DNA of 10,019 nucleotides from Nocardioides sp. (GTDB taxonomy: Bacteria > Actinomycetota > Actinomycetes > Propionibacteriales > Nocardioidaceae). Position 1 is the first letter of the stretch; every line of letters starts with the position of its first letter. Location: the NCBI GenBank assembly GCA_021166815.1, contig JAJPEO010000252.1, positions 1-10,019 of the forward strand, written 5' to 3'. The notes beneath the pieces were generated by a model, which was not told the DNA's origin, did not search any database, and was given only the letters and a program-made list of their open reading frames with translations. Of the stretch, positions 1,044 through 9,306 are shown piece after piece. A program made the position numbers and the translations under genes.

Positions 1044-2747
1044 TCAGCCCTCCGACGCGTGCACCTCACGCATCGGGACGCGTACGCCACGCTCCTCGGC
1101 GACCTCCACGGCCCGCTCGTAGCCCGCGTCGACGTGGCGGATGACGCCCATCCCGGGGTCGTTGGTGAGCACCCGCTCGATCTTCTGCGCCGCCAGGTCG
1201 GTGCCGTCGGCGACGGTCACCTGGCCGGCGTGCAGCGACCGCCCGATCCCGACCCCGCCGCCGTGGTGAAACGACACCCAGGTCGCTCCCGAGGCGGTGT
1301 TGACCAGCGCGTTGAGGATCGCCCAGTCGGCGATCGCGTCGGAGCCGTCGAGCATCGCCTCGGTCTCGCGGTAGGGCGAGGCGACGCTGCCGCAGTCGAG
1401 GTGGTCGCGCCCGATCACGATGGGCGCCCGGAGCTCTCCCGAGGCGACCATCTCGTTGAACCGCAGCCCCGCCCGGTGGCGCTCGCCGTACCCGAGCCAG
1501 CAGATGCGCGCGGGCAGGCCCTGGTACTGCACCCGTTCGGCGGCCATGTCGAGCCACTTGTGCAGGCGGGCGTACGCCGGCTTCTCGTGGGCCGGGAACA
1601 GCTCCTTGATCGCGCGGTCGGTCGCGGCGATGTCGGCAGGGTCGCCGGACAGCGCCGCCCACCGGAAGGGGCCCTTGCCCTCGCAGAACAGGGGCCGGAT
1701 GTAGGCCGGCACGAACCCGGGGAACTCGAACGCCCGGTCGTAGCCGCCCTTGCGGGCCTCGTCGCGGATCGAGTTGCCGTAGTCGAACACCTCGGCGCCG
1801 GCGTCCTGCAGCTCGACCATCGCGCGCACGTGCCGGGCCATCGACTCCTGGGCCCGCTTGGTGAAGCCCGCCGGGTCCTCGGTGCGCTCGCGCTCCCAGT
1901 CCTCGACCGCGACCCCGGACGGCAGGTAGAAGAGCGGGTCGTGGGCCGACGTCTGGTCGGTGACCACGTCGATGCGCACCTCGCCCGCCACGTGACGCTC
2001 GAGCAGCTCGGGCAGGACGTCGGCCGCGTTGCCGAGCAGGCCGATCGAGAGCGGGCGGCGGGCGTCGCGAGCCTCGATCGCGAGCTCGACGGCGTGGTCG
2101 AGGTCGCGGGCCTGGGTGTCCAGGTAGCGGGTCTCCAGGCGCCGGTCGATGCGGTGCTGGTCGACCTCGACGCAGATGACCACGCCGTCGTTCATCGTGA
2201 CGGCCAGGGGCTGGGCGCCGCCCATGCCGCCCAGGCCGGAGGTGACCGTGATGGTGCCGGCGAGGGTGCCGTCGAACCTCTTGTCGGCGACCGCGGCGAA
2301 GGTCTCGAAGGTGCCCTGGAGGATGCCCTGGGTGCCGATGTAGATCCACGACCCCGCGGTCATCTGGCCGTACATCGTCAGCCCGAGCTCCTCCAGGCGA
2401 CGGAACTCCTCCCAGTTGGCCCAGTCGCCCACGAGGTTGGAGTTGGCGATCAGCACGCGCGGCGCCCACTCGTGGGTGCGCATGACGCCCACCGGCTTGC
2501 CCGACTGCACCAGGAGCGTCTCGTCGTCCCCGAGGTCGCGCAGGCTCGCGAGGATGGCGTCGTACGCCTCCCAGCTGCGGGCCGCGCGCCCGGTGCCGCC
2601 GTAGACGACGAGGTCCTCGGGGCGCTCGGCGTTGTCGGGGTCGAGGTTGTTCATGAGCATCCGCAGCGGGGCCTCGGTCTGCCACGAGCGGGCGGACAGC
2701 TCGGTGCCGGTCGGCGCGTGGATCGGGAGGCGCGGGTTGTCGGTCAT
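1044..2747 (-). CDS. hutU: Urocanate hydratase (urocanase)
   Basis: This cytoplasmic NAD+-dependent enzyme converts urocanate to 4-imidazolone-5-propionate, the second step of histidine degradation. The 567-residue product has the usual family length of about 550-570 and aligns by eye along its whole length. Hallmarks are [12 protein letters not shown] (49-60), the Gly-rich [12 protein letters not shown] (171-182), the Rossmann-like NAD+ segment around 230-280, the active-site Cys in [10 protein letters not shown] (C416, equivalent to C410 of the Pseudomonas enzyme), and conserved C-terminal blocks [14 protein letters not shown] (445-458) and [11 protein letters not shown] (492-502). The start at MTDN is chosen because homology begins there and an upstream in-frame Met (codon ending at 2867) would add 40 residues of non-conserved, palindrome-containing sequence. 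No strong SD precedes it. An 18-bp palindrome lies 54 bp upstream, identical in sequence and spacing to that of hutH, so the two genes are probably co-regulated though not in one operon. Function is near certain. Confidence 0.97.
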
Positions 2748-2801
2748 GGGTCCATCGAACGCCTCGTACGCGGTCCCCGCCAGCCCCGCCGGCCCGCCTG
2801 A

Positions 2802-2819
2802 CGTCTCGGATCCGAGACG
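2802..2819 (-). promoter_or_regulatory. Palindromic operator upstream of hutU
   Basis: CGTCTCGGATCCGAGACG is a perfect 18-bp palindrome with no central gap, ending 54 bp before the hutU start codon. The same 18 bp occur at the same distance from hutH (7277-7294) and nowhere else that I found in the window. A shared hut regulator binding site is the simplest reading. The Corynebacterium IclR-type HutR motif, as I recall it, has the same TCT...AGA ends, which fits the IclR gene at 8180. No convincing -35/-10 pair could be assigned around it. Confidence 0.75.
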
Positions 2820-2834
2820 AGGTCGTCCCTCCTC

Positions 2835-2867
2835 TTGTTTGAGCAAACGTTTTGAGCATATGCTCAA
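2835..2867 (+). promoter_or_regulatory. Promoter and TetR-type operator of the 2871-5661 operon
   Basis: TTGAGCATATGCTCAA (2852-2867) is a perfect 16-bp palindrome ending 3 nt before the ATG at 2871. A copy of its half-site, TTTGAGCA, also lies 13 bp upstream (2838-2845 against 2851-2858), within the weaker palindrome GTTTG-AG-CAAAC (2837-2848). A candidate promoter is TTGTTT (2835-2840), an 18-nt spacer and TATGCT (2859-2864). The palindrome would then cover the -10 box and the mRNA would be nearly leaderless. The operon's last gene encodes a TetR regulator, so autorepression through this site is likely. The binding partner is inferred. Confidence 0.6.
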
Positions 2868-2870
2868 GCC

Positions 2871-3725
2871 ATGGAGTCCCCACCGGTCCGTACGCGACTG
2901 CTCGCCATGCTGGTCGTCGTCGTCCCCGTCGCGTTCGCGGCCACGCTGCTCGCCACGGCGATCGGCCGCCTCGACACCGCGCTGTTCTTCGTCGGCGTCC
3001 CGTGCCTGCTGGCCCTGGTCATCGGGCTCCTGCCGGGCGAGACGAGCTCGGCGGTCCTCTTCCAGGTCATCACGATCGTCCTGCTACTGATCTCCGCGTT
3101 CCTGCACGAGGGCGCCCTGTGCGTGCTGCTCGTGAGCCCGCTCGTCTACGGCGTCGCGTTCGCCGCCCTCGGGATCACCAAGCTCGTCGAGCGACGCTCC
3201 CAGCGGTACGGCGTCGGCCTGCTGTTCGCGCTGGTCGCGCTCGAGGGGCTGACCCCCGGCCTGCGCATCAGCCCCGAGCACGAGGTCACCGCCGGCCGTG
3301 TCGTGGCCGCGGAGTGCGTCGACTTCGAGCGCGCCCTCGAGCGCGGCCCGCGGATCGACCCGGAGGCAGACCGCGGCTGGCTGCTCCGGCTCGCGCAGTA
3401 CCCCACCCCGACCAGCGCCACCGGCGCCGGCCTCGAGCCCGGCGACACCTGGGAGCTGGGCATGCCCGCCGGCAGCGTGAGCACCGAGGTCGTCTCCCGC
3501 GGCCCGGGGCGCATCGAGTTCGACGTCACCGCCGACGGCGCGCGCACCACGCGCTGGGTCACGCTCGAGCGCGGCGTGCTCACCTGGCAGCAGACCGAGC
3601 AGGGCTGTCGCGCCGAAGTGCGGATCGACTTCGTGCGCGACCTGGACCCGGCGTTCTGGTTCGGTCCGCTGAGCGAGGTCTTCATGACCGCCGGCGCCGA
3701 CGCCTTCCTCGCCAGCCTCGACTGA
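2871..3725 (+). CDS. Membrane protein with C-terminal START/SRPBCC-like domain
   Basis: The 284-residue protein has two parts. Residues 8 to about 127 contain four or five hydrophobic helices (roughly 8-30, 35-53, 60-77, 79-101 and 112-126). Residues 135-284 are soluble and look like a helix-grip (SRPBCC, polyketide cyclase/lipid-transport-like) domain: an N-terminal [11 protein letters not shown] helix, [11 protein letters not shown], strands around [18 protein letters not shown] and [11 protein letters not shown], and a long C-terminal helix after [10 protein letters not shown]. Such domains bind hydrophobic ligands, but no catalytic residue or ligand can be named here. The ATG sits 3 nt after an operator-like palindrome, suggesting a leaderless message; no SD is present. 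It is first in a three-gene operon, 8 nt upstream of a membrane methyltransferase, so a lipid-related job is plausible. The longer frame from 2852 that crosses this gene is a shadow. Confidence 0.8.
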
Positions 3726-3733
3726 GGCCCTCG

Positions 3734-5044
3734 ATGGACAGCGCGGACCTCGCCCGCAACCTCGTCCTCGCCTGGGCACTGGCCCTGGTGGTCGTGGCCG
3801 CCGGCGTACGCCATGCCCGCACGGGTGACCTCCTCCCCCGCACGCCTGCGGCGTTCCTGGCCGCGCTGTGGGTGTGGGTCGCCATCCACGCGGTGGAGGC
3901 CACGACCTCGTGGTGGACGTGGGCATCCGCGCCGGTGGCCCTGTTCGACGTGCCCGCGGAGGTCTCGCTGGGCTGGGCGCTGCTGTGGGGCGTGCTGCCC
4001 GTTCTGGTCGGCGGTCCGCGGGCCGCCTGGCTGGTGGGCCTCGCGTGGTTGGACCTGGTGGCGATGCGAGCCGCCGACCCGCTCGTGGGCCTCGGCCCGG
4101 ACTGGCTCCTGGGCGAGGCGCTGCTGCTGGTGGTGGGCCTGGTGCCGGCCCTGCTCCTGGGCCGGGCCACCCACGAGCGACGCTGGCTGACGCTGCGGGT
4201 CGTCCTGCAGGGTGTGCTGTTCACGGCGATGTTCGGCTGGCTCGTCCCGAGCGTCGCTCTCGCCCGCGACGGCCTCACGTGGTCTGCCCTGGTCGACCAC
4301 TCCTACCCCGTGCGCTCGCTGCTGCTGACGGCGGCCGTGGTCGTCGGGGTGCCCGGCCTCGCGGCGGTGGCGGACCTGGCCCGGGCCGGCGGGACGCCGT
4401 ACCCGTGGGACCCGCCGACGAGACTGGTCACCACCGGGCCGTACGCCTACGTCAGCAACCCCATGCAGATGGCCATCGCCGGACTGATGGTCGTGCTGAC
4501 CATCGCGTCGGGCTCGGTGACGCTGGCAGCGTGCACCGCGTTCTCGATCGCGTTCTCGGTGGTGCTCGCGGAGCGCCACGAGCGGGAGTCGCTGAGCCGC
4601 CGGTGGCCGGAGTACGCCGACTACCGCCGCCACGTGCACGCGTGGTGGCCGCGGTGGCGGCCGTGGGTGCCGGAGCCGGCGACCCTGTGGGTCAGCCGTA
4701 CGTGCGGCCTGTGCGCCGCGACCGGCGACGTCGTCGAGGCGATGGAGCCGACGGGGCTGACGCTGCGCGCTGCCGAGGCCGCGCCCACCGGCCTGACCCG
4801 CATGCGCTGGGAGAGCGGCGCCGACCACAGCGACGGGGTCGCGGCCTTCGCCCGGGCGCTGGAGCAGACCACCCTGCCCCGGGCCTGGCTCGGGTGGTGG
4901 ATGCGGCTGCCGTTGGTGGCGCCGTGGCTGCAGCGCGTGGCGGACGCGTGCGGCCTGGGTCCTCGTACGATTCCCTCGACCGCCGGGCCGACCCCCGGAC
5001 CGACCCGACCCCACCCGTCGACGACCCAGCGAGTGCAGCCGTGA
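3734..5044 (+). CDS. ICMT/PEMT-like membrane methyltransferase fused to a CxxC (DCC-like) domain
   Basis: The 436-residue protein starts at ATG 3734, 8 nt after the previous stop. Residues 10-280 hold about eight hydrophobic segments. The region 222-305 matches the isoprenylcysteine/phospholipid methyltransferase signature: PYPWDPPTRLVTTGPYAYVSN (222-242, PP...GPYAYVSNPM), then ER-HERE (280-285) and WPEYADYRRHV (291-301), the motifs that bind S-adenosylmethionine in this family. Residues 315-408 form a second module with C324-G-L-C327 after a hydrophobic strand, then HSDGVAAFARALEQT and a tail ending LQRVADACG. This resembles the DCC/DUF393 thiol-oxidoreductase family in layout (CxxC, DG...A, final helix) but is divergent. 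A Pro/Thr-rich tail follows (412-436). The substrate is unknown; a membrane lipid or prenyl group is an inference. Its stop overlaps the TetR start (GTGA), implying translational coupling. The methyltransferase call is firm, the DCC call tentative. Confidence 0.8.
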   Translation: MDSADLARNLVLAWALALVVVAAGVRHARTGDLLPRTPAAFLAALWVWVAIHAVEATTSWWTWASAPVALFDVPAEVSLGWALLWGVLPVLVGGPRAAWLVGLAWLDLVAMRAADPLVGLGPDWLLGEALLLVVGLVPALLLGRATHERRWLTLRVVLQGVLFTAMFGWLVPSVALARDGLTWSALVDHSYPVRSLLLTAAVVVGVPGLAAVADLARAGGTPYPWDPPTRLVTTGPYAYVSNPMQMAIAGLMVVLTIASGSVTLAACTAFSIAFSVVLAERHERESLSRRWPEYADYRRHVHAWWPRWRPWVPEPATLWVSRTCGLCAATGDVVEAMEPTGLTLRAAEAAPTGLTRMRWESGADHSDGVAAFARALEQTTLPRAWLGWWMRLPLVAPWLQRVADACGLGPRTIPSTAGPTPGPTRPHPSTTQRVQP

Positions 5045-5661
5045 GCAGCGAAGAGACCCGGACCGCGTTGATGGACGCGGCCGTGCGCCTGACCTCGACC
5101 GCGGGCACCAAGGCGCTCACCGCGCGCGGCATCGCGGGCGAGGCGGGGGTCAACCAGGCGCTCGTCTACTACCACTTCCAGGGGGTCGACGGGCTGCTAC
5201 GCGAGGCCTACGAGCGGGCGACGCTGGCGATGATCGCGGACTTCGCGGCCGACCTCGAGGGGGTCGCGAGCTTCGAGGAGCTCTACGCCGTGGGAGCGCG
5301 GCTCGCCGAGCGGGCCGCGAGCGACGGGAGCGCCGCCCTGCTGAGCCACCTCGTCGCCGCCGCCCACCACGACGAGCAGATGGCGTCCATGCTCGGCACG
5401 AGCATGGACCACTGGAAGGCGGCGGTCGCGGGGGCGGTCCGCCGCATCCTCGAGGGTCGCGGCATGGCCGGGGCGGTCGACGTCGACGGGCTGACCAACT
5501 CCCTGACCGCGTCGACCGTGGGGATGGTGACCCTCGGCGCGGTCCCCGGGCAGCCGCTCGGCGACCCGCTCAAGGCGGTCGGCGCCCTGCCGCCCCTGCT
5601 CGACCGGGTGCTCCGCCTCGTGCCCGCACCCTTGGCGCGGCGCATCTTCGGTCGGGGCTGA
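5041..5661 (+). CDS. TetR/AcrR-family transcriptional regulator
   Basis: The GTG start overlaps the preceding stop (GTGA), making this the third gene of the operon. The 206-residue product has the usual TetR length. The N-terminal helix-turn-helix is clear: ALTARGIAGEAGVNQALVYY followed by HF (about 25-46), the family's most conserved stretch. The C-terminal helical domain (about 55-206) should bind an effector and mediate dimerisation; it is not specific enough by eye to name the ligand. The perfect palindrome over the operon's promoter (2852-2867) is its most likely operator, giving autoregulation of the membrane-protein and methyltransferase genes. Direct control of the flanking hut genes is possible but less likely, because they carry a different palindrome. 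Confidence 0.92.
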   Translation: MSSEETRTALMDAAVRLTSTAGTKALTARGIAGEAGVNQALVYYHFQGVDGLLREAYERATLAMIADFAADLEGVASFEELYAVGARLAERAASDGSAALLSHLVAAAHHDEQMASMLGTSMDHWKAAVAGAVRRILEGRGMAGAVDVDGLTNSLTASTVGMVTLGAVPGQPLGDPLKAVGALPPLLDRVLRLVPAPLARRIFGRG

Positions 5662-5672
5662 GCAGCGCTCAG
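5658..5672. terminator. Small hairpin spanning both convergent stop codons
   Basis: CTGAGC (5658-5663) and GCTCAG (5667-5672) are perfect inverted repeats around a 3-nt loop. The TetR TGA (5659-5661) lies in one arm and the hutH stop (5669-5671) in the other, with only 7 bp between the two genes. It may act as a minimal bidirectional terminator. There is no T-tract on either side, and the stem is short. Confidence 0.35.
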
Positions 5673-7222
5673 GCGAGGTCGCCGACGACGCCCTGCGCCG
5701 CGGCGAGCACCGCGCCCGAGCGGACCTGCTCGACGGCAGCCTCGATCTCGGGCGAGAGGTGCCGGTCCGGCCCCGGCCCGGCGACGCCCGCGGCACGCAG
5801 GGTCCGTACGACCGCTGCCGTCGCGGGGGACGGCTCGAGCGGGGCGCGCAGGTCCAGGGCGCGCGCCGCGGTGAGGACCTCGATGGCCACCACGCGGGAG
5901 AGCCCGTCGACGGCCCGGCGCAACTTGCGGGCCGCGCCCCATCCCATCGACACGTGGTCCTCCTGCATCGCGCTGGAGGGGATCGAGTCGACGCTCGCGG
6001 GCACCGCGAGCCGCTTGAGCTCGGAGACGATCGCCGCCTGGGTGTACTGCGCGATCATCAGGCCGGAGTCGACGCCTGGGTCGTCGGCGAGGAAGGGCGG
6101 CAGCCCGTGGTTGCGCGACTTGTCGAGGAAGCGGTCGGTGCGCCGCTCGCTGATGCTCGCCACGTCCGCGGCGACGATCGCCAGGAAGTCGAGGACGTAG
6201 GCGACGGGTGCCCCGTGGAAGTTGCCGTTGGACTCGACGCGTCCCTCGCCGTCCGGCCCGACCAGCACCACCGGGTTGTCGATCGCACTGGCCAGCTCAC
6301 GGCCGGCCACGACCGCGGCGTGCTCGACGGTGTCGCGGGCCGCCCCGTGGACCTGGGGGGAGCAGCGCAGGGAGTACGCGTCCTGGACGCGGTTGCAGTC
6401 CGGGCCACGGTGCGACGCGACGACGCCGGAATCGGCCAGCAGGGCCACCAGGTTGGCCGCGGAGAGCGCCTGCCCCGGGTGCGGCCGGATCGCCTGCAGC
6501 TCGGGGGCGAAGACCCGGTCGGTGCCCAGCTGGGCCTCGACGCTCATCGCAGCCGCGATGTCGGCGGTGCGCAGCAGCAGGCGCAGGTCGGCGATCGCCA
6601 TGACCAGCATGCCGAGCATCCCGTCGGTGCCGTTGATGAGGGCCAGCCCCTCCTTCTCCCGCAGCTCGACGGGCTCCCGCCCGGCCGCGGCGAGCGCCAC
6701 GGCCGCGGGGACCAGCTCACCCGCGGCGTCGCGCACCTCGCCCTCCCCCATCAGCGCCAGCGCGCAGTGGGCCAGCGGGGCCAGGTCGCCGGAGCAGCCC
6801 AGCGACCCGTGCTCCCGGACCACCGGCGTGATCTGGTGGGTCAGCAGCGCCGCCATCAGCTCGGCGGTCTCCCGACGGACGCCCGTACGGCCGGTGGCGA
6901 GGGTGGACAGGCGCAGCAGCATCAGGGCGCGTACGACCTCCCTCTCGACCTCGGGACCCGATCCCGCGGCGTGCGAGCGGACCAGAGAGCGCTGGAGCTG
7001 GGTGCGGCTCTCGGTGGGGATGTGCCGGGTGGCGAGCGCCCCGAACCCGGTGGAGACGCCGTACGACGGGGTGTCGGCCGACGCGAGGGTCTCGACGACG
7101 GCACGGGCGCGGTCGATGGCGTCGAGGGCCTCGTCGGTGAGCGTGACGCCGGCGCCCCCACGGGCCACGGCGAGGACGTCGTCGAAGGAGACCGGACCGA
7201 CTCCCACCTGGATGCTGCTCAT
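5669..7222 (-). CDS. hutH: Histidine ammonia-lyase (histidase)
   Basis: This cytoplasmic homotetrameric enzyme deaminates L-histidine to urocanate, the committed step of histidine degradation. The 517-residue product matches the family length. The active site is complete: YGVSTGFG (Y54), SHAAGSGP (H84), the MIO-forming segment HGSLGCSGDLAPL (C143-S144-G145), LINGTDGM (N197), DAYSLRCSPQ (Y283, R286), ESNGNFHG (F335) and QEDHVSMG (E421). The cofactor triad is Cys-Ser-Gly rather than Ala-Ser-Gly, a variant I recall from actinobacterial histidases, so it is not a defect. The start at MSSIQ is chosen because homology begins there; GAGGGG (7233-7238 on the plus strand) is a slightly distant SD. An out-of-frame ATG 8 nt upstream opens only a three-codon frame (ATGGCCGCATGA). 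The 18-bp hut palindrome lies 54 bp upstream. The gene is convergent with the TetR gene and separated from hutU by the inserted operon. Confidence 0.97.
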   Translation of the reverse strand: MSSIQVGVGPVSFDDVLAVARGGAGVTLTDEALDAIDRARAVVETLASADTPSYGVSTGFGALATRHIPTESRTQLQRSLVRSHAAGSGPEVEREVVRALMLLRLSTLATGRTGVRRETAELMAALLTHQITPVVREHGSLGCSGDLAPLAHCALALMGEGEVRDAAGELVPAAVALAAAGREPVELREKEGLALINGTDGMLGMLVMAIADLRLLLRTADIAAAMSVEAQLGTDRVFAPELQAIRPHPGQALSAANLVALLADSGVVASHRGPDCNRVQDAYSLRCSPQVHGAARDTVEHAAVVAGRELASAIDNPVVLVGPDGEGRVESNGNFHGAPVAYVLDFLAIVAADVASISERRTDRFLDKSRNHGLPPFLADDPGVDSGLMIAQYTQAAIVSELKRLAVPASVDSIPSSAMQEDHVSMGWGAARKLRRAVDGLSRVVAIEVLTAARALDLRAPLEPSPATAAVVRTLRAAGVAGPGPDRHLSPEIEAAVEQVRSGAVLAAAQGVVGDLA

Positions 7223-7276
7223 GCGGCCATGAAACCCCTCACGGCGTCGACGGCACCAGAGCGCGCGTCCGCGGGG

Positions 7277-7294
7277 CGTCTCGGATCCGAGACG
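7277..7294 (-). promoter_or_regulatory. Palindromic operator upstream of hutH
   Basis: CGTCTCGGATCCGAGACG, identical to the 18 bp at 2802-2819, ends 54 bp before the hutH start, exactly as at hutU. The sequences on either side of the two copies are otherwise unlike, so selection seems to hold the palindrome and its spacing. It sits in the 173-bp gap between hutH and the divergent small gene at 7396 and could affect both. Confidence 0.75.
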
Positions 7295-8179: not shown

Positions 8180-8935
8180 GTGACCCAGGTCCCCGCCGCG
8201 ACTCGCACCCTCCGGGTGCTGCGCTACCTCGCCGGACAGGCCGACCCGGTGCCGCTCGATCGCATCATGCGCGCCTGCGACCTGCCCCGCAGCACCGCCT
8301 ACCACCTGCTCAACACGATGATCGACGAGGGCTTCGTCGTCCACCTGCCCGAGGAGCACCGCTACGGGCTGGGCGTCGCCGCCTTCGAGGTCGGCACGGG
8401 CTTCACCCGCCAGGAACCGCTCGCGCGACTCTCCCGCACCCGCCTGGCCGCCCTCGTCGACGAGGTCGCCCACTCCGCCCACCTGGCCGTCCTGCACGGA
8501 CGCGACGTGCTCTACGTCCTCGAGGAGCGGGCCCCGGGACGACCGCCCCTGGTCACCGATGTCGGCGTACGCCTCCCAGCCCACCTCACCGCCTCCGGCC
8601 GCGCCATCCTCAGCGCCCTGCCCGCCAGCCAGGTCCGGGCCCTCTACCCCGACCGCGACGCGTTCGCCGACCGCCACGGCGTCGGACCCCGTACGCCGAG
8701 CGCCCTGCGCACCGTCCTCGCCGAGGCACGGCAGCGCGGCTGGGCCACCGAGGACGGCGAGGTGACACCCGGCTTCAGCAGCGTGGCCGCCCCCGTCCTC
8801 GACCACAACGCACACCCCGTGGCCGGCCTCGCCGTCACCTTCCCCACCGGCGACGAGCCGCCGGGGCTCACGACCGCGGTCGTCTCCGCCGCCGCCGCCC
8901 TCAGCCGCCGCCTGCGCTGGAACCCCGCCGGCTGA
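8180..8935 (+). CDS. IclR-family transcriptional regulator, candidate hut regulator
   Basis: The 251-residue protein has the two-part IclR layout. The N-terminal winged helix-turn-helix covers about 8-63: TLRVLRYLAG, PLDRIMRACDLPRSTAYHLL as recognition region, and the wing at GFVVHLPEEHRYGLG. The effector domain covers about 78-248, with LPAHLTASGRAILSALP (132-148) and PGFSSVAAPVLDH...VAGLAVTFP (197-222) as family signatures. The start is GTG 8180; no SD is visible, so it may be leaderless. GATCTG is directly repeated just upstream (8161-8166, 8171-8176). Because IclR-type HutR controls hut genes in Corynebacterium and two hut genes with identical operator-like palindromes lie nearby, it is the best candidate for their regulator. 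No copy of that palindrome lies in front of this gene, so autoregulation through it is not supported. Confidence 0.93.
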   Translation: MTQVPAATRTLRVLRYLAGQADPVPLDRIMRACDLPRSTAYHLLNTMIDEGFVVHLPEEHRYGLGVAAFEVGTGFTRQEPLARLSRTRLAALVDEVAHSAHLAVLHGRDVLYVLEERAPGRPPLVTDVGVRLPAHLTASGRAILSALPASQVRALYPDRDAFADRHGVGPRTPSALRTVLAEARQRGWATEDGEVTPGFSSVAAPVLDHNAHPVAGLAVTFPTGDEPPGLTTAVVSAAAALSRRLRWNPAG

Positions 8936-8956
8936 GGAGCGCTCGGGTCCCTCGCG

Positions 8957-9280
8957 GGTTGAGGTGCGAGGACCGGTGGCGCGGTTCGCTGGTTGAGGCG
9001 CGAGGAGCGCCGGCGACGAGCCTCGAAACCAGCGCCAGACGGTCCGCTGGTTGAGCTGCGAGGACCGCGGCATCACTCGCTGGTTGAGGCGTCAGGAGCG
9101 CCAGCGCGCTTCGCTGGTTGAGGCGCGAGGAGCGCCAGCGACGAGCCTCGAAACCTGCACCCGACGGTCCGCTGGTCGGGGCGCGAGGATCGGTGGCGTG
9201 GTTCGCTGATTGAGGCGCGCGGACCGCGACGTCACTCGCTGGTTGAGGTGTGAGGAGCGCCAGCGACGAGCCTCGAAACC
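8957..9280. repeat. Array of degenerate actinobacterial extragenic repeats
   Basis: Three full 40-bp copies begin GGTTGAGG and end CCTCGAAACC: 8991-9030, 9116-9155 and 9241-9280. They start exactly 125 bp apart, and their ends form an imperfect inverted repeat (GAGGC with GCCTC; GGTT with AACC). Between and before them lie five shorter 33-34-bp relatives at 8957-8990, 9049-9081, 9082-9115, 9174-9207 and 9208-9240, each beginning with a GGTTGAGG-like block and ending in TTCGCT or ACTCGCT. The array fills most of the gap between the IclR and DUF222 genes. The sequence type is one I recall as highly repeated in Nocardioides and relatives, where it yields spurious ORFs. Function is unknown; REP-like or terminator roles are possible. 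Confidence 0.85.
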
Positions 9281-9306
9281 ACCCTCCACATACGCCACCT
9301 GGAGGA

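Follow-up and report, generated by a model that had tools for sequence, protein, structure and literature searches.

HutR of Corynebacterium resistens DSM 45100, reportedly described by Schroder et al. in 2012 (FEMS Microbiol Lett 331:136), is said to be a regulator of the IclR family. An IclR-family regulator gene adjoins the histidine utilization (hut) genes of that species according to a passage of one paper (PMC3350403), and Table 1 of another gives the HutR motif as the 16-bp GTCTGWWATWCCAGAC (PMC8222616). A regulator of the same family, pathway and name is described for Pseudomonas aeruginosa in a passage that reports it to be inducible by formiminoglutamate and that gives no motif; it is co-transcribed with hutE, unlike the regulator considered here (PMC12977541). 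The same paper presents Pseudomonas HutC, likewise a local regulator of hut genes, as a urocanate-responsive repressor of a different family, GntR (PMC12977541). The subject here is a stretch of 10,019 nucleotides from Nocardioides sp. (contig JAJPEO010000252.1 of assembly GCA_021166815.1), the whole of which is called the window, carrying hutU, hutH and a gene for an IclR-family protein at 8180–8935, with the same palindrome, CGTCTCGGATCCGAGACG, standing before both hut genes. The locus resembles the C. resistens system in regulator family, in the position of the regulator gene beside hut, in the 16-bp length of the motif and in its GTCT...AGAC arms, a likeness of family, motif and gene context. 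It differs in that the hut cluster is split, and in that the third target is an allantoate amidohydrolase-hutF unit in place of hutG.

Both copies of CGTCTCGGATCCGAGACG are perfect 18-bp palindromes, assigned to neither strand, at 2802–2819 (the putative HutR box of hutU, conserved core 2803–2818) and at 7277–7294 (that of hutH, conserved core 7278–7293). The spacer up to the A of the ATG is 54 bp in each case (2748–2801 and 7223–7276), the start codons beginning at 2747 and 7222 of the minus strand, exactly as the initial annotation had it. The two promoters, which it had called unlinked, carry boxes only 4.5 kb apart. No other perfect 18-bp palindrome occurs in the window, and outside a repeat tract at about 8985–9281 no other 18-mer is exactly repeated. 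At up to three mismatches the window holds only these 2 matches to CGTCTCGGATCCGAGACG, where 200 shuffles predict 0.03. A search of the draft genome (2.83 Mb in 400 contigs, with a completeness of 89.7%) for the 18-mer gives no exact copies but the two in the window's hut promoters, and one further match at two mismatches (C323:1935). A reversed control of CGTCTCGGATCCGAGACG also has 2 matches in the draft at up to three mismatches, thus such matches are not specific by themselves; similarly, 95 of 96 relatives contain some match at this level, however the control matches in many of them too, so that the tally says little. In relatives, conservation covers the inner 16 bp and not the full 18 bp, and this core, GTCTSNNNNNNSAGAC, is found at 4 places in the genome compared with 1 for its reversed control: three hut promoters and C179:345, the centre of which is not palindromic.

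The 96 relatives were searched for HutU, HutH and the IclR protein, and 94 regions (L034, L126–L218) were analysed as loci together with the window. A box was counted at hutH when it had at most 4 mismatches in 16 and lay within 130 bp, which could be scored at 87 hutH loci with enough upstream sequence (L185, where the contig ends, was set aside). Of the 87, 64 have an IclR gene in the analysed region around hutH, and a box precedes hutH in 63 of these 64 loci compared with 1 of the 23 others. Mismatches range from 0 to 4 where the IclR gene is in the locus (7 in L198) and from 5 to 8 where it is not (1 in L139). Three of the 23 loci (L139, L127 and L137) lie in genomes with an IclR gene elsewhere, and L139 is the lone box-bearing locus among the 23. 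Counted by whole-genome search (E ≤1e-30), a box stands before hutH in 64 of 67 loci with an IclR gene in the genome and in 0 of 20 without. The initial annotation had named the IclR protein at 8180 as the natural partner of the palindromes; with the box present before hutH in 64 loci, and following the gene as it does, this protein is very probably the partner of the boxes.

When 64 hutH upstream regions are aligned on the box, two further stretches are conserved at a fixed distance from it and about 18 bp apart, at positions 20–23 (T, G/T, G, C/T) and 43–50 (TTGGAT-like, then G). The window shows the corresponding pair on the minus strand in both promoter stretches, CTGGCG (-35-like) and TTCGAT (-10-like) before hutU (2748..2801) and CTGGTG and TTTCAT before hutH (7223..7276), each followed by 6 bp and the ATG. 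In a search for in-frame ATG or GTG codons 50 to 64 bp after the core, a start was found at 54–57 bp in 64/64 hutH loci, at 54–55 bp in 20/20 amidohydrolase loci (three genomes counted twice) and at 55–59 bp in 8/10 hutU loci; displacing the box position by 4–15 bp reduces the hutH loci with a start at 54–57 bp to 0–18 of 64. A position weight matrix trained on 43 hutH promoters and compared with 5000 random sequences recovers the pair in each of the 10 hutU promoters (p between 0 and 0.036), none of the random sequences scoring as high as the hutU promoter of the window. Because the pair ends about 6 bp before the ATG, a leaderless start is probable, and with a transcription start about 7 bp after the -10-like hexamer, transcripts would begin at or within 1–2 bases of the ATG, placing the box centre near -63. 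On the strength of these consensus elements the hutH and hutU transcripts are probably leaderless. The IclR family in general often has its sites centred between -20 and -80 relative to the gene start, according to a passage on the family (PMC8222616), so that what is unusual here is not the distance as such but its constancy. In nine Streptomyces hutU upstream regions, compared by eye, a CTGG...T[C/G/T]AT pair is found at a similar distance from the box, and a leader with a GGAG-like sequence precedes the ATG, the aligned start being 85–199 bp after the box. As the spacing of the pair is kept while the start codon is farther away, box-to-promoter spacing seems tied to transcription and not to the position of the start codon.

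The box itself was compared across a set composed of the best 80 loci among the matches listed and 21 loci from 396 genomes of the phylum, 20 of the 21 matching at E ≤1e-50. The GTCT-N8-AGAC palindrome is present upstream of hut genes here, and it differs from the C. resistens motif in having C at position 5 and G at position 12 in place of G and C; the initial annotation had called the core close to, but not identical with, the HutR motif of Corynebacterium. Among the matches listed, Streptomyces, Cellulomonas and others carry GTCTGGGATCCCAGAC, GTCTGGTATCCCAGAC and similar sequences before hutH, which are GTCTGG-N4-CCAGAC-like and of the C. resistens type, and boxes changed on one side only occur as intermediates within Nocardioides. 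Over 139 labelled hutH sites, with 122 distinct IclR proteins (some genomes were fetched twice), positions 5 and 12 read C...G in 76, G...C in 25 and mixed in 38. The helix-turn-helix residues P36, R37, S38 and Y41 (motif PRS[T/S]-x-Y) are invariant in all 139 rows. The suggestion of a new operator type for this lineage was therefore abandoned, since boxes of the G type and of mixed type accompany identical residues; because the boxes of relatives match the C. resistens type and intermediates exist, the box, judged by its letters, is a variant of the published HutR box and of a known kind. Residues 26–28 differ with box position 5 but follow lineage, and nothing was drawn from them. In nine Streptomyces loci (L326, L327, L329, L332–L334, L338, L340 and L351) the hutU box is C-type (T or G, then TCTCGGATCCGAGA, then A or G) and the boxes of hutH and of the regulator gene are mostly G-type. 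Tandem boxes 21–22 bp apart precede hutH in L333 (9928, 9949) and L341 (9927, 9949), in agreement with the 18–22 nt spacing given for tandem IclR-family sites in a passage on the family (PMC8222616). A literature search, which left subscription papers mostly outside its reach, found nothing on histidine utilization or hut in Nocardioides, and within the same coverage the 12-bp box centre co-occurs with 'histidine' only in a paper on cloning vectors.

A third good copy of the core, with one mismatch to that of the window, lies at C323:1936–1951, 54 bp before the start (1881) of an allantoate amidohydrolase-type gene (model NF006770, 587 bits, cut-off 372). The start of hutF follows this gene, the contig ending inside hutF (best model 349 bits, full-length cut-off 362). 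An amidohydrolase gene is preceded by a box with up to two mismatches in 21 of 94 loci, three genomes being counted twice. hutI was not seen, and with a draft genome of 89.7% completeness there may be further sites that it lacks. The small hut regulon defined by a shared site, as originally put forward, is supported, and what the initial annotation had overlooked is the amidohydrolase-hutF target, the one-box hutHU operon of relatives and the promoter geometry.

In relatives, hutH and hutU are usually neighbours, the gap between them being below 60 bp in 59 loci, 60–250 bp in 13 and 364 bp in 1; L198 has a different gene order and falls outside these classes. A box before hutU is found in 0 of the 73 loci with a gap of up to 364 bp, although 55 of these have the IclR gene, and in 8 of 8 with a gap of at least 490 bp, the window included. 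The sequence CGGAG is found around the hutU start in 37 of 39 fused loci (gap below 60 bp) with HutU at least 78% identical, in 1 of 8 split loci and in none of the other 20 fused loci, which are more distant. Near-matches with GGAG that lie shortly before hutU in fused loci (e.g. GTCCGTGATCGGAGAC) were dismissed as ribosome-site sequence in the tail of hutH, and a recent duplication of the hutH promoter before hutU was rejected, only box and geometry being common to the two by eye. A hutHU operon with one box is the usual state in relatives, and the fused state would be the older one, because most rows of other families are fused. On the best tree of 82 HutH and HutU rows, 9 of them labelled split (L198 included), this label changes 9 times, several forks being unsupported. 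In the window, hutU would have its own box because three inserted genes separate it from hutH.

The reading that is considered likely is that HutR, the IclR-family protein encoded at 8180–8935 and of the kind so named in C. resistens, would bind both palindromes and activate at least three promoters of the genome, those of hutH, hutU and, on another contig, allantoate amidohydrolase-hutF. Bound some 63 bp before the point where transcription starts, which would coincide with the start codon or differ from it by one or two bases, it would adjoin on the upstream side a -35 element (CTGG[T/C]G at hutH and hutU, a poor one in both) and would assist RNA polymerase in the presence of histidine or one of its breakdown products; candidate effectors are histidine, urocanate and formiminoglutamate. 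The boxes, their fixed geometry and their occurrence alongside the gene are read from the sequence, whereas binding, activation, leaderless start, effector and the greater age of the fused state are inferred. The box copy at hutU would compensate for the three-gene insertion that separates it from hutH. Several observations weigh against this reading. The hutH-trained profile was tried on the amidohydrolase promoters and given up, as it fits only 2 of 21 and is not significant in the other 19; the pair in these promoters is another one, TTGACC and TGGACT, with unchanged spacing. No box precedes the IclR gene itself in the window in a search allowing up to three mismatches. hutH is without a box in L127 and L137 despite an IclR gene in the genome (boxes occur there at the separate hutU loci L126 and L136), and in L198 despite an IclR gene in the locus. 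Independent pairs are few: a sign test of IclR gene and box gives 4, of which 3–4 agree and 0 oppose (median p 0.125), and that of split label and hutU box gives 6, of which 5 agree and 0 oppose (p 0.0625). Furthermore, the tree count does not separate gain from loss and does not establish the fused state as ancestral.

A classical operator, at which HutR would act as a repressor released by histidine or urocanate, is the less probable mode, without being far-fetched. The IclR family includes repressors, activators and dual regulators, as a passage on the family states (PMC8222616), the transcription start is a prediction, and looping, for instance, could let a box upstream of -35 act in repression. 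However, box and predicted -35/-10 pair do not overlap, hutH and hutU both have a poor -35, and in two HutR-less relatives, L146 and L162, the only ones so compared by eye, the TTGGAT-like element before the ATG is kept while GTCGAC replaces CTGG. The position of the box upstream of the -35-like element points to an activator box and not to a blocking operator, and activation from about -63 is, though unproven, better supported than other modes. It is improbable that the IclR gene is a mere neighbour and that another regulator binds the boxes, be it a global factor or the TetR protein encoded at 5041. The TetR gene does lie between both boxes in the window, but the insert bearing it recurs in only one other searched locus (L151) compared with boxes in 64 hutH loci, box and IclR gene are present or absent together across loci, and a separate palindrome before the insert is the better TetR candidate. 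That the palindromes are chance repeats, restriction-like sites or remnants of a mobile repeat can hardly be credited: CGTCTCGGATCCGAGACG contains GGATCC and could form a hairpin, but its excess over the shuffled expectation, its fixed distance to start codons and the fact that in relatives the sequence varies yet the position is kept all speak against an origin of this kind.

The genes of the window are well defined. hutU (1044..2747, minus strand) encodes a urocanate hydratase of 567 amino acids from the first ATG of the family N-terminus (TIGR01228, 924 bits, cut-off 375) and hutH (5669..7222, minus strand) a histidine ammonia-lyase of 517 amino acids (TIGR01225, 644 bits, cut-off 539), both passing the equivalog cut-offs. 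The proposed hutR (8180..8935, plus strand), 0.96 kb from the hutH start, encodes both an IclR helix-turn-helix (HTH_IclR, PF09339, 53.8 bits, cut-off 22) and an IclR effector domain (IclR_C, PF01614, 87.5 bits, cut-off 24). Between the minus-strand genes sit three on the plus strand (2871..5661), in keeping with the earlier view that hutU and hutH are transcribed separately: one for a 284-amino-acid protein without a Pfam match, one for a PEMT-domain protein and one for a TetR regulator. The same three genes stand between hutH and hutU in L151 (about 9248–11984, 58–74% identity), which is not a tree neighbour of the window, and the insert was not found in the other loci searched. Directly before the insert lies a perfect 16-bp palindrome, TTGAGCATATGCTCAA (2852–2867), probably the TetR operator of the insert; the equivalent place in L151 has an AT-rich TTGAACATATG-like repeat. 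An RNA element was considered and discarded, the window having no Rfam match at the gathering threshold. Intergenic direct repeats (CGCTGGTTGAGG... and GACGAGCCTCGAAACC units) are found 3' of the IclR gene at 8948–9290.

Among relatives, L034, which belongs to another family, has a perfect core box (11147–11162) before a second aromatic-amino-acid-lyase-like gene (11212–12639) that scores below the hutH cut-off. A gene for an MFS transporter, possibly a carrier for histidine or urocanate, adjoins the IclR gene in L144 (5776–7020) and L128 (6583–7776). The palindrome-like sequences AGTGGTCCGGACCAGT and AGTGGTACGGACCAGT stand before hutH in L146 and L162 and resemble the DasR-type dre site. Replacement of the regulator at hutH is possible in these two loci; no GntR gene was noticed beside hut among their roughly called genes, on which no domain search was run.

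What appears to be new here is the placement of the box upstream of a conserved -35/-10-like pair and the possession by hutU of its own box in split loci. The range of a regulator known from Corynebacterium would extend to Nocardioides, Streptomyces and other actinobacteria, and a testable mechanism is offered, in which promoters that are probably leaderless would be activated from a fixed position. The broader proposition has perhaps a little less than an even chance of being right: in several families of actinobacteria, an IclR-type activator box fixed near -63 would drive hut transcripts without leaders, and each time the hutHU operon broke, hutU would have come to have its own box and promoter and its translation would have changed from ribosome-site-coupled to leaderless. 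As the split label changes 9 times, the genus would provide a natural series on how a gene cut from its operon keeps its regulation.

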